Assembly: GCA_947628235.1 (NCBI GenBank) | Contig: CANQZC010000001.1 | Span: forward strand, 140,435-204,434 | Length of the DNA stretch: 64,000 nt | Reading direction: 5' to 3' | Source: an uncultured Bacilli bacterium | GTDB lineage: Bacteria > Bacillota_I > Bacilli_A > RF39 > UBA660 | Part shown: positions 55,812 to 61,667 of the stretch, piece by piece | Layout of the letters: every line of letters begins with the position of its first letter | How positions within the stretch are numbered: position 1 is the first letter of the stretch | Notes under the pieces: model-generated | Database searches by the model: none | What the model saw: only the letters and a program-made list of their open reading frames with translations | What the model was told of the DNA's origin: nothing | Translations under genes and position numbers: made by a program

Positions 55812-55850
55812 AAAGAAAAGAACTCATTTTTGAGTTCTTTTTCTTTTCCT
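55811..55850. terminator. Bidirectional terminator
   Basis: AAAGAACTCA (55817-55826), four-T loop, TGAGTTCTTT (55831-55840); it serves the yidD unit and the carboxypeptidase gene. Confidence 0.9.
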
Positions 55851-57023
55851 TTTCTTTCTTTTCCGATGAATAAAGAAGACTGTAAGAAATAAAATTCCTA
55901 ATAAAATCAAAACAATTCCCAAAAGAATCTGCTGTTCAGGAAGAGGTTTTAAGATTCTATATTCTAAATAAAATGGTTCTTCAAAGAGAACTTCTTCCCC
56001 GATAGAAATACGATATTCCCCTATCTTATCTCCTGCTTTCATCGTATAAAGTAACTTTTCTGCTCCTTCATATTCATAAGAAATTTCCGTAGATTTTGGT
56101 AAATATTTTATTATTTCCGTATCAGATTGATAAGTATGTATCTTACCATTCTCATCAGGAATCTCTTTTAAGACATCCCCTTTTTTTAAAATCGTCTTAT
56201 ATTCATAATTCGTAAAAAAGTATTGATAAAGTTTATCACTATCAATTACTTGATTTGGTTTTCCACTCTTATAATCTGCCCCAGCTGTAATTAATAGATA
56301 TTGTTCTCCATCATGAGAAGCAACACTCGCTAAGCATAATCCCGCATCATAGGTATATCCAGTTTTACTTCCCTGAATATAGGAAGTATCTATCTTCGCA
56401 ATCCGCGAATTCTTTTCTAAAGTACTTTCAAAAGTATGATTCTTATTACTCGTCGTATACTTTCTAGAAGAGAAAATCTTTTCAAAATCAGGGTTCTTTA
56501 GTCCTTCTCTTAGAATGATAGCGACTTCTTCTAGCGTAGAATAATGTCCCTCTTCATCTAATCCTGTCGTATTTACAAAATGCGTATTTTGAAGACCTAA
56601 AGTACTAGCTTTCTCATTCATCTTCTGTACCATGGCATTTTCACTTCCGACAAGATGATTCGAAAGCGCTAAAGCACATTCTGCACCACTAGGAAGAAGA
56701 AGTCCATAGAGAAGATCCCGATAAGTAACCACTTCTCCTATCCGAAATCCTGCTTGAGAAGCATGAGCCTCGACAAGTCCTTTAAAATCATTCGCCGTTA
56801 AAGTCACTTTGGCATCTAAATCTTTTATCTCATCCAAAGCAACTAAAGCTGTCATTAATTTCGTTAAACTAGCAATGGAAATCTTTTCTTTCGCACCTTT
56901 TTCATAGAGAACTTCCTCTCTATCTATTTCATAAAAATAGACATTGGTAGAACTGATACTAGGAATCGCATAGACGGGAAAAGAAAGGAAGAAAAGACAA
57001 AAAAACAAAATTATTTTTTTCAT
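55824..57023 (-). CDS. D-alanyl-D-alanine carboxypeptidase (DacA/DacF-like)
   Basis: A 399-residue S11 peptidase trimming pentapeptides in peptidoglycan: signal peptide (1-19), SxxK motif in ASLTKLMTA, KTG in GSKTGYT, a C-terminal beta domain and membrane helix with a very basic tail. The second motif reads SGA (LLPSGAECAL) where SGN is usual. In Bacillus dacF lies directly upstream of spoIIA; here a DacF-like gene follows the sigma factor gene after a tRNA. Overlaps its upstream gene by four bases. Confidence 0.92.
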   Translation of the reverse strand: MKKIILFFCLFFLSFPVYAIPSISSTNVYFYEIDREEVLYEKGAKEKISIASLTKLMTALVALDEIKDLDAKVTLTANDFKGLVEAHASQAGFRIGEVVTYRDLLYGLLLPSGAECALALSNHLVGSENAMVQKMNEKASTLGLQNTHFVNTTGLDEEGHYSTLEEVAIILREGLKNPDFEKIFSSRKYTTSNKNHTFESTLEKNSRIAKIDTSYIQGSKTGYTYDAGLCLASVASHDGEQYLLITAGADYKSGKPNQVIDSDKLYQYFFTNYEYKTILKKGDVLKEIPDENGKIHTYQSDTEIIKYLPKSTEISYEYEGAEKLLYTMKAGDKIGEYRISIGEEVLFEEPFYLEYRILKPLPEQQILLGIVLILLGILFLTVFFIHRKRKKRKRKRTQK

Positions 57024-57421: not shown

Positions 57422-57513
57422 TGGCGGAGCAGGAGGGATTTGAACCCTCGCGCCAGTTAACCCGACCTACACCCTTAGCAGGGGCGCCTCTTCAGCCTCT
57501 TGAGTACTACTCC
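57422..57513 (-). tRNA. tRNA-Ser (GCU)
   Basis: A 92-base class II tRNA with encoded CCA. Acceptor GGAGTAG pairs with CTGCTCC; the anticodon loop is CTGCTAA (anticodon GCT); a long variable arm lies between; the T arm is GAGGG-TTCAAAT-CCCTC. It reads AGC/AGU. Confidence 0.97.
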
Positions 57514-57566: not shown

Positions 57567-58193
57567 TTAAGCAACTAATTTGTTTTTTAATTTTTGTAAT
57601 GCCTTACTTTCTTTTCTAGAAACTTGAACTTGACTGATACCTAGGATATTCGCTGTTTCCTGTTGTGTACAATCTTCCATATATCGCTTATGTAAGATAT
57701 CCATTTCTTCTTTACTTAATTCTTTCAATTCTTCCCTTAAATAAATTTCCTCATCGATATCTTTTGTCATCCCGACTGGAATTTCATCCACATTGAGTAA
57801 AGCACGATTGCAGTAAAAGGCCTCTACAACATATTCCTCCCCTACTTCTAAAAAGTCGGCGATTTCTTTTATGGTCGGTTCTCTCATAAACCGTTGAGAT
57901 AAAAGAATACTTGCTTTTTCAATCTTTAAATGAAGAGCGTGTTGTTGTCTACTAATTTTAATACCTCGATCCTCGCGTACTAGTTTTTTCATTTCTCCTA
58001 AAATGTAACTATAGGCATAAGTAGAAAACTTGGTATGATAATCATCGCGATAACGATAATACGCCTCTATCAACCCGATACATCCTACTTGAAATAAATC
58101 CTCTTTGTTAGAATAATTTGGAAAATACTTCATAATTGCATAGATTAATTTTTCATGTTGTAAAAGAATTGTTTCTAATTCTGATTGCTCCAT
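57567..58193 (-). CDS. Sporulation-type sigma factor (SigF/SigB/SigG group)
   Basis: A 208-residue sigma-70 protein. Region 2 includes NKEDLFQVGCIGLIEA and FSTYAYSYILGEM; region 3 REPTIKEIADFLEVGEE; region 4 CTQQETANILGISQVQVSR. The last motif matches sporulation SigF/SigG. At 208 residues it is shorter than Bacillus SigF (255). Its start overlaps a SpoIIAA-like gene by 19 bases, as spoIIAA-spoIIAB-sigF order would suggest, but no spoIIAB lies between. SigF is favoured by context; a paralogue cannot be excluded. Confidence 0.82.
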   Translation of the reverse strand: MEQSELETILLQHEKLIYAIMKYFPNYSNKEDLFQVGCIGLIEAYYRYRDDYHTKFSTYAYSYILGEMKKLVREDRGIKISRQQHALHLKIEKASILLSQRFMREPTIKEIADFLEVGEEYVVEAFYCNRALLNVDEIPVGMTKDIDEEIYLREELKELSKEEMDILHKRYMEDCTQQETANILGISQVQVSRKESKALQKLKNKLVA

Positions 58194-58549
58194 TTCATCA
58201 CCTTAATAGCATTCAATTCATCAGAGATTTCATAAATGTAATTCAAAATCTTTGATTGTTTTAAATTCTTATTAACGCGATGATTCATACCACAAATCAA
58301 ACTATGACCAGATTTATCATGAATCGTCTCGTATAGTTGAAATAAGGCTTCAATTCCATACATATCAATCATCCGTAAATCTTGAAGATTGAACACGATA
58401 TTCGTAATTCCGGAATGTATCAATCCCTCAAATTCCTTCTGAAAAATAGGTACTGTCTTAGAAACAAGTTTTCCCTCTAGCCGTACAAACAAAATTCCCT
58501 CCCTATATTCTGTTTGAATCTCTAGCACACTATCACTCTCCATATTCAC
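58175..58549 (-). CDS. SpoIIAA-like STAS protein with altered phosphorylation site
   Basis: A 124-residue STAS domain aligning over its length with SpoIIAA (NIVFNLQDLRMIDMYGI, then HSLICGMNHRVNKNLKQSKI). Where SpoIIAA has Asp-Ser-Ser-Gly with Ser58 phosphorylated by SpoIIAB, this protein has Asp62-Met63-Tyr64-Gly65. It thus cannot be inactivated by the usual Ser kinase. GTG at 58549 is used (AGGTG spacing five); an ATG six bases downstream is an alternative. Sits directly before the sigma gene. Confidence 0.8.
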   Translation of the reverse strand: MNMESDSVLEIQTEYREGILFVRLEGKLVSKTVPIFQKEFEGLIHSGITNIVFNLQDLRMIDMYGIEALFQLYETIHDKSGHSLICGMNHRVNKNLKQSKILNYIYEISDELNAIKVMKWSNQN

Positions 58550-58550
58550 T

Positions 58551-59000
58551 CTAACACCTTTTTGGAAATCGTACTAGCGATTCGACAAAACTAGATAAAT
58601 TTAGTAGTGGTACTTCTTCCTCTTTCATCTTAACAAGCCGAAAACCAATTCGTTCGACCTGTTCTTGTAAGGTATAAAAATCATAGGTAGCATCTTCCAA
58701 AACCATATCCTCTGCTTGATAGATATCCTTCTTTTTAGGAAAGAGAGTAGCGACTAAGTCTTGATCATGATAAAAGCGAATTTCTCGAAAATCACCAGAG
58801 ATTTGAAAAGCATCAATAGGATAATAATTATTTAAATCGATTCTAGAAGAACTAGGATAAATAACCTCTTCTCCTAATACAATTTCAACTTGCTTTCCAC
58901 CTTCTATTTCTAAATAACGAACTTCTTCTTGAACTTGATATTGATATACTTTCACGGAAATTTTCCAAGACAAAAAAAATAATGTAGTAAATAGTTGCAT
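58551..59000 (-). CDS. Unknown protein at the head of the sigma operon
   Basis: A 149-residue protein with a short hydrophobic start and a beta-rich body (VRYLEIEGGKQVEIVLGEEV, EIRFYHDQDLVATLFP). No family recognised. Start at 59000 follows AGAGGTGAT but lies in the loop of a strong terminator-like hairpin; GTG at 58955, after the hairpin, is an alternative that would remove the hydrophobic start. One base before the STAS gene, so part of its operon. Confidence 0.6.
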   Translation of the reverse strand: MQLFTTLFFLSWKISVKVYQYQVQEEVRYLEIEGGKQVEIVLGEEVIYPSSSRIDLNNYYPIDAFQISGDFREIRFYHDQDLVATLFPKKKDIYQAEDMVLEDATYDFYTLQEQVERIGFRLVKMKEEEVPLLNLSSFVESLVRFPKRC

Positions 59001-60770: not shown

Positions 60771-60797
60771 AAAAAACTAAAGAAAATCTTTAGTTTT
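60771..60797 (-). terminator. Terminator of the 60796 gene
   Basis: AAAACTAAAGA (60773-60783), AAA loop, TCTTTAGTTTT (60787-60797); T-run on the minus strand; overlaps the stop codon. Confidence 0.88.
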
Positions 60798-61128
60798 ATA
60801 AACTCTTTCCATTCGATAAATCTTTATCTTCCATACTCGATGTTAAAAGTGCGATTTTCACACTTTCCTGATACTTTTGATGAGCATGAGCCACTCTATC
60901 AGGATGCATTTCTTTGTTTGTAAACATTTCCGTTGTCGTAGGAAGAAAATCTCCAAATTTTTCGATATCCTCTTCACTACATAATCCTCTTTGAATCTGT
61001 GAAACGCGAATATCACTGAGACTTTCTAACACAATTGCAAACGCATCGGTTTGTTGATGTGGATTTGTTTCTTTCGCTGTTACTAGGTAGTCCATGTAAT
61101 CAAAAGCAGTTTCTGTTTTCGTTGCCAT
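60796..61128 (-). CDS. Unknown helical protein
   Basis: A 110-residue soluble protein, mostly helical, with His/Gln-rich NPHQQTD and a motif RVAHAHQKYQES. No family recognised. Its ATG overlaps the stop of the upstream unknown gene by one base (TAATG), so the two are coupled and probably work together. Confidence 0.55.
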   Translation of the reverse strand: MATKTETAFDYMDYLVTAKETNPHQQTDAFAIVLESLSDIRVSQIQRGLCSEEDIEKFGDFLPTTTEMFTNKEMHPDRVAHAHQKYQESVKIALLTSSMEDKDLSNGKSL

Positions 61129-61667
61129 TAACCAACCTCCGCTTCTAACATTTTCTTATAGATAATGTCAGAATCATTGTTAAAATATGCTTGGAAAAGA
61201 ATATCCTCACCAATAATTTGACTAATTAAATTCGTTGCTAACAACTCCTCCTCATAGTCACAAACACCTTCATTACCTACTAAGAAATTGGCTAACATCT
61301 CTGTATATCCAATATTTAAAGCTCGTAAGCTTCCGTTTTTATTAAATCCATAGTAGTCTTCATAAGAAGAAATCATTCCTAGGATACCTTTCATCATCAA
61401 ATGATCAATATCGTAGTCCTCTCCTAATTTCTTACTACTGAAACAAATTTCATTTTTTAAAGAGTCATATATGACAGGACCTTTTCTTTCAAAGACTCCC
61501 ATTTTTCCCAATTTTACATCTTTTATCTTCTCTTTAAGTCGATCCAAACTAACATCTGGAAACTTTTGATGAAAGAGTGTAGTAAGTTCAAGCATCTTAT
61601 CCTTGACCTCATCTGTAAGATTTTGATTGGTAGCTAGATTATTTCGTACTTCCTCTATGATATCCAT
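61128..61667 (-). CDS. Unknown conserved protein
   Basis: A 179-residue soluble protein beginning MDIIEEVRNNLATNQNL, with DHLMMKGILGMISSYEDYYGFNK and GYTEMLANFLVGNEG-type segments. The His/Met/Glu spacing in IDHLMMKGILG and TEMLANF vaguely resembles metallopeptidase helices, but there is no HEXXH motif. Family unknown. It follows the ClpC-type gene by about 80 bases and pairs with the next gene. Confidence 0.55.
   Translation of the reverse strand: MDIIEEVRNNLATNQNLTDEVKDKMLELTTLFHQKFPDVSLDRLKEKIKDVKLGKMGVFERKGPVIYDSLKNEICFSSKKLGEDYDIDHLMMKGILGMISSYEDYYGFNKNGSLRALNIGYTEMLANFLVGNEGVCDYEEELLATNLISQIIGEDILFQAYFNNDSDIIYKKMLEAEVG

Follow-up and report, generated by a model that had tools for sequence, protein, structure and literature searches.

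Loss of the SpoIIAA/SpoIIAB/SpoIIE partner switch and retention of a divergent spoIIAA beside sigF in a family of Bacilli

The SpoIIAA/SpoIIAB/SpoIIE partner switch, the textbook means of confining sigma-F to the forespore, is gone throughout the bacterial family studied here (probably UBA660, order RF39): the kinase, the phosphatase and the phosphorylation site are all absent. What is left is a spoIIAA-like STAS gene placed before sigF, which was analyzed in a 64 kb stretch of DNA (hereafter, the window; Table 1) and in relatives of the genome containing it (the window genome). We consider it likely that the spoIIA operon of this family has been reduced to this pair of genes, that Spo0A~P sets the timing of sigma-F, and that the altered SpoIIAA has been repurposed as a non-essential accessory. 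All of the family members sampled are draft metagenome assemblies, and we know of no member in which sporulation has been seen.

Table 1. Features of the spoIIAA-sigF locus in the window, with the observations on which each assignment is based.
Feature	Position	Strand	Basis
sigF orthologue, sigma-70 family, 208 aa	57567..58193	-	NCBIfam, tree, spoVA synteny in relatives
STAS gene, SpoIIAA orthologue without SpoIIAB	58175..58549	-	Pfam STAS, 55 bits; PDB profile matches
STAS/sigF gene overlap, 19 bases, no spoIIAB	58175..58193	-	sequence; order without spoIIAB in 135/139 loci
Asp-Met-Tyr-Gly codons, D62 M63 Y64 G65 (B. subtilis D57 S58 S59 G60)	58355..58366	-	sequence and alignments
-10-like element TGTTAGAGT, 26 nt after the Spo0A box	58548..58556	-	fixed spacing in relatives
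Predicted exported protein, 149 aa	58551..59000	-	upstream of STAS; short relative of a secreted/membrane family
Spo0A box TTTGTCGAA upstream of STAS	58581..58589	-	sole match in the 64 kb window

The STAS reading frame, as listed, encodes 124 amino acids (Pfam STAS, E = 7e-15). Since the listed GTG at 58549 is overlapped by the -10-like element of the promoter, a more likely start is the GTG at 58528-58526; it gives a protein of 117 amino acids, and in 87% of the relatives an ATG aligns with it. The nearest solved structure of this STAS fold was SpoIIAA by two routes: SpoIIAA proteins were the best PDB profile matches (1auz, 4e-21; 1th8, 1e-20), and the best Foldseek match of the AlphaFold model (pLDDT 91) was 1tid_B/1til_B, the model superposing best on the SpoIIAA of these SpoIIAA-SpoIIAB complexes (1TID and 1TIL). 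The protein scored 41.7 bits with the SpoIIAA equivalog TIGR02886, below the 114.75 bits required. It was the only STAS-family match in the 1.6 Mb window genome (94.1% complete, 38 contigs, 3.4% contamination).

For the adjacent sigma gene, the best NCBIfam models were SigBFG (159 bits) and sigF (158 bits), both far below their cut-offs (321 bits for the SigF equivalog TIGR02885), and in the tree the protein fell in a divergent, family-specific clade. Many relatives carry spoVAC, spoVAD, and spoVAE downstream of the STAS-sigma pair, and in B. subtilis, too, the spoVA genes come after spoIIA. The window genome also codes for a separate SigG, which lies apart from this sigma factor in the tree, as well as for SigE (downstream of spoIIGA), SigK, SpoIIGA, SpoIIR, and Spo0A. 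Given the spoVA genes downstream in relatives and the separate SigG, SigE, and SigK, we identify the sigma factor as SigF, with the STAS protein in the position of SpoIIAA.

Downstream of sigF, the window contains a tRNA-Ser(GCT) (57422-57513, minus strand), located between sigF and the gene of a 108-aa membrane protein, and a D-alanyl-D-alanine carboxypeptidase gene (DacF-like, peptidase S11; 55824-57023, minus strand). The dacF gene of B. subtilis lies upstream of spoIIAA.

In the earlier note, the STAS gene had been described as a minus-strand frame with an Asp-Met-Tyr-Gly motif, overlapping the sigma gene and leaving no space for spoIIAB. All of this was borne out by the sequence, as no gene separates the two. 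The absence extends to the whole family: SpoIIAB (TIGR01925) was over the cut-off in none of the 117 family genera, the window genome included (the B. subtilis control was positive), and SpoIIE in none of the 117, while Spo0A and SpoIIR were over the cut-off in 107 and 101 of them, respectively. In the class, SpoIIAB was over the cut-off in 58 out of the 296 genomes, which belonged to nine other families and none to that of the window. The genome search for a HATPase_c anti-sigma factor proposed in the earlier note yielded no SpoIIAB-type protein over the cut-off in the window genome, and a second, normal spoIIA operon, which it had named as possible counter-evidence, was not found there. For Gin/CsfB, considered as a replacement anti-sigma factor, the model gave no match even in the B. 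subtilis control, and its one match over the cut-off was a zinc-ribbon protein encoded beside a LexA-like repressor.

A 2024 survey reported that spoIIAB and spoIIE are reduced or absent in RF39, with other sporulation genes being kept (PMC10868615). Our results share this loss with the survey. Its main text says nothing about spoIIAA; new in the present analysis are the concerted decay of SpoIIAA at both the phosphorylation site and the docking surface, the continued selection on this protein, the STAS-sigF pair, the repeated loss of STAS, and the Spo0A promoter.

The decay of SpoIIAA was described by comparing 96 different STAS proteins of the family with those of 28 class members keeping SpoIIAB. 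In this outgroup, F55, D57, S58, G60, G62, R67, and G95 were invariant and D23 was conserved at 96%. In the family, D57 (100%) and G60 (98%) were retained and F55 and G62 were variable. Ser58 was found in 9 out of the 96 proteins (28 out of 28 in the outgroup), with mostly Ile, Met, or Leu in its place, D23 in 5 out of the 96, and the SpoIIE-docking Arg67 in none (28 out of 28 in the outgroup). In B. subtilis SpoIIAA, the R67T substitution makes dephosphorylation by SpoIIE approximately 20-fold slower (PMC11418112). Judging from the alignment, both the kinase target and the phosphatase dock have been lost, which matches the absence of SpoIIAB and SpoIIE themselves. The earlier suspicion that the partner switch is broken or rewired is thus strongly supported, and for the family as a whole. 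Other residues have become invariant or nearly so in the family, namely E14, R16, G18, F21, R23, N54, G81, C86, and E111 (window numbering).

The phosphorylation loop of the window protein reads I-D-M-Y-G-I. It corresponds to M56-D57-S58-S59-G60 of B. subtilis SpoIIAA, in which S58, the first residue after the Asp, is the phosphorylated one. The claim that the Ser phosphorylated by SpoIIAB had become Tyr was correct as to the loss of the Ser but not as to the position: in the profile alignment of the window protein to 1AUZ and 1TH8, S58 pairs with Met63 and Ser59 with Tyr64, and no Ser is placed at the site. Nor is the Tyr fixed in the lineage, as had been considered; it was not conserved even within the genus, three congeners having D-L-S-G, D-R-S-G, and D-N-T-A, respectively.

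The Spo0A box of the window is embedded in the 3' end of the gene upstream. Of the 96 relatives, 81 had the same box in the 200 bases before STAS, versus 3% of random stretches of the same loci, and it was mostly located 40-60 bases before the STAS start, a fixed upstream position such as a Spo0A-activated operon would have. In 50 of the 88 promoters with a box, a G[CT]TA[AG]A element followed after exactly 25 or 26 nt; no other spacing occurred within 45 nt. Moreover, the core of the box, TGTCGAA, was observed before sigF in 10 out of the 14 genomes in which STAS is missing or truncated.

The 149-aa protein encoded directly upstream of STAS matched no Pfam or NCBIfam family and no PDB entry, and its model was only partly confident (pLDDT 68). 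It is a short form of a predicted exported family with the core Y-x-Y...IRYI...IDLNNYYPL, whose genes immediately precede STAS-sigF in about 40 of the 83 loci (for example, L056:1173-3032, L072:5437-5910, and L176:4301-4744) and which also includes long forms of 356-715 aa, ending in a transmembrane segment in the examples read. This family is a candidate sporulation protein. We rejected the 149-aa protein as an anti-sigma factor, based on its signal-like N-terminal helix and on its longer relatives, which look extracytoplasmic with a short basic tail. In ten other loci, the gene directly upstream of STAS encodes a protein of 85-92 aa that belongs to no known family and weakly resembles DUF2508 (for example, L059:4628-4906 and L052:4180-4452). 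Two uncharacterised genes (61128-61667 and 60796-61128, both on the minus strand) were observed between gltX and a ClpA/B-type ATPase gene, in the same order in the congeneric loci L173 and L174; the 179-aa protein of this pair had 20 members among the fetched loci.

A STAS homologue was detected in 83 of the 117 genera by single-sequence search, and in 218 of the 288 genomes by profile search. SpoIIR was present in 81 of these 83 genera. Six of the genomes without STAS and SpoIIR also had neither SigF nor SigG; the best sigma match in these, where there was one, was at housekeeping level. The sigma gene came directly after STAS in 135 of 139 loci, the two genes either overlapping by up to a few tens of bases or being separated by less than 90 bases; in one further locus, it lay 1.5 kb downstream. 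The STAS gene is usually under purifying selection: its dN/dS was 0.04-0.23 in 15 out of 16 close species pairs, similar to that of sigF, and 0.50 (relaxed) in the remaining one. Nevertheless, 14 genomes have an intact sigF preceded by a truncated STAS or by none at all, for which the sigF tree requires at least six changes. In two congeners of the window genome (G175 and G271), gltX is directly followed by sigF, with 195 and 83 bases in between, respectively, and STAS is gone. In the former, the upstream region and the STAS start can still be aligned in part with the sister species (score of 105; the highest shuffled score was 92). Despite the loss, this congener has retained the sigF start context GTGATGAAATGG. 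In a third genome (G085), STAS is a truncated frame of 67 aa.

Compared with spoIIAA-spoIIAB-sigF of B. subtilis, the family locus has in common the STAS fold, the place before sigF, the upstream Spo0A box, the downstream spoVA genes (in relatives), Asp57, and Gly60. It differs in having no SpoIIAB or SpoIIE, in the loss of Ser58, Arg67, and usually Asp23, in a variable Gly62, and in a STAS protein with new invariant residues that is dispensable in several lineages. The RsbV-RsbW-sigB system shows the same fold and general logic, with a STAS gene beside a sigma gene; unlike it, the window locus is sporulation-specific and has neither an RsbW-type anti-sigma factor nor a conserved phosphorylatable serine.

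Among the other explanations, the one that survives best, which we hold possible but do not favor, is that the altered SpoIIAA binds sigma-F directly and tunes it, as a weak anti-sigma factor, chaperone, or co-activator, thereby doing part of the job of SpoIIAB. Direct binding is attractive because of the STAS-sigF pairing, with genes that are almost always adjacent and often overlap at their ends, and the new invariant residues point in the same direction. Several sigma-F columns are also conserved together with STAS and relaxed in STAS-less lineages (for E92, 92% versus 36%), but this contrast, although suggestive, was not significant on independent pairs, of which three were usable (same direction 0.7 on average), and we did not retain these residues as support. 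Moreover, sigF has outlived STAS at least six times, so STAS cannot be the only inhibitor of sigma-F if uncontrolled sigma-F is toxic in these bacteria, as it is in B. subtilis (PMC11418112). The same losses make it unlikely that STAS controls the sigma factor directly as an essential regulator, one of the roles put forward earlier; another, that of a constitutively active STAS protein, is meaningless without a SpoIIAB to bind. A combined reading, in which a sporulating family runs forespore sigma-F with no partner switch at all and the orphaned SpoIIAA is now its direct, non-phosphorylated regulator, is rather doubtful as a whole.

We think it unlikely that the altered SpoIIAA is a relict, preserved for no other reason than that its 3' end holds the sigF ribosome-binding site and start region and serves to couple translation of sigF. 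The overlap of the two genes in the window would suit such a role, as would the repeated STAS losses, the truncated frame, and the STAS-less congener in which remnants can be aligned and the sigF start context is kept. The low dN/dS in all but one of the species pairs and the invariant residues across the entire STAS domain argue against it, and there would be little reason for a pure coupler to retain a conserved STAS protein in some 80 genera.

A hidden partner switch, in which a GHKL sensor kinase or an unrecognised kinase replaces SpoIIAB and phosphorylates another residue, seems improbable. Most genomes do contain several GHKL ATPase domains that weakly match the SpoIIAB model, and a minority of the STAS proteins have a Ser, Thr, or Tyr at position 58 or 59. 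However, nearly all of the weaker matches, among those listed, were in frames of sensor-kinase size (320-730 aa), with none at the cut-off, and the five matches in the window genome were domains of reading frames of 403-584 aa; the GHKL proteins were thus rejected as SpoIIAB. In addition, no phosphorylatable residue is conserved at the site, and both SpoIIE and its docking residue have been lost. Finally, it is hardly credible that spoIIAB and spoIIE have escaped notice through missing contigs or chimeric bins, even though the window genome is incomplete, fragmented, and slightly contaminated, as both are absent from all 117 genera, most of which have Spo0A and SpoIIR, and STAS and sigF adjoin on single contigs.

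Under the reduced operon that we prefer, spoIIAA-spoIIAB-sigF would have become an altered spoIIAA followed by sigF. Spo0A~P, rather than the partner switch, probably decides when sigma-F appears, and the restriction of sigma-F to the forespore, if any, would come from something else. The altered SpoIIAA would no longer be an anti-anti-sigma factor; probably it now serves its operon in a new role, as a non-essential accessory. A candidate surface, formed by the beta1-beta2 hairpin (E14/R16/G18/F21/R23) and the C-terminal helix with E111, might bind sigma-F itself or another partner; the conservation of R16, R23, and E111 might also reflect an internal salt bridge alone. The Ser still found at the site in nine STAS proteins and the one species pair with relaxed constraint on STAS speak against this account.

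In B. subtilis, uncontrolled sigma-F is lethal. A family of many genera that has kept Spo0A and SpoIIR (and, in the one genome where this was shown, all four sigma factors of sporulation) while its switch was dismantled amounts to a natural experiment, implying that compartment-specific activation can be reached by another route or is dispensable. Since intermediates exist, with the Ser present, the Ser lost, STAS truncated, or STAS deleted, the order in which the switch was dismantled can be tested.
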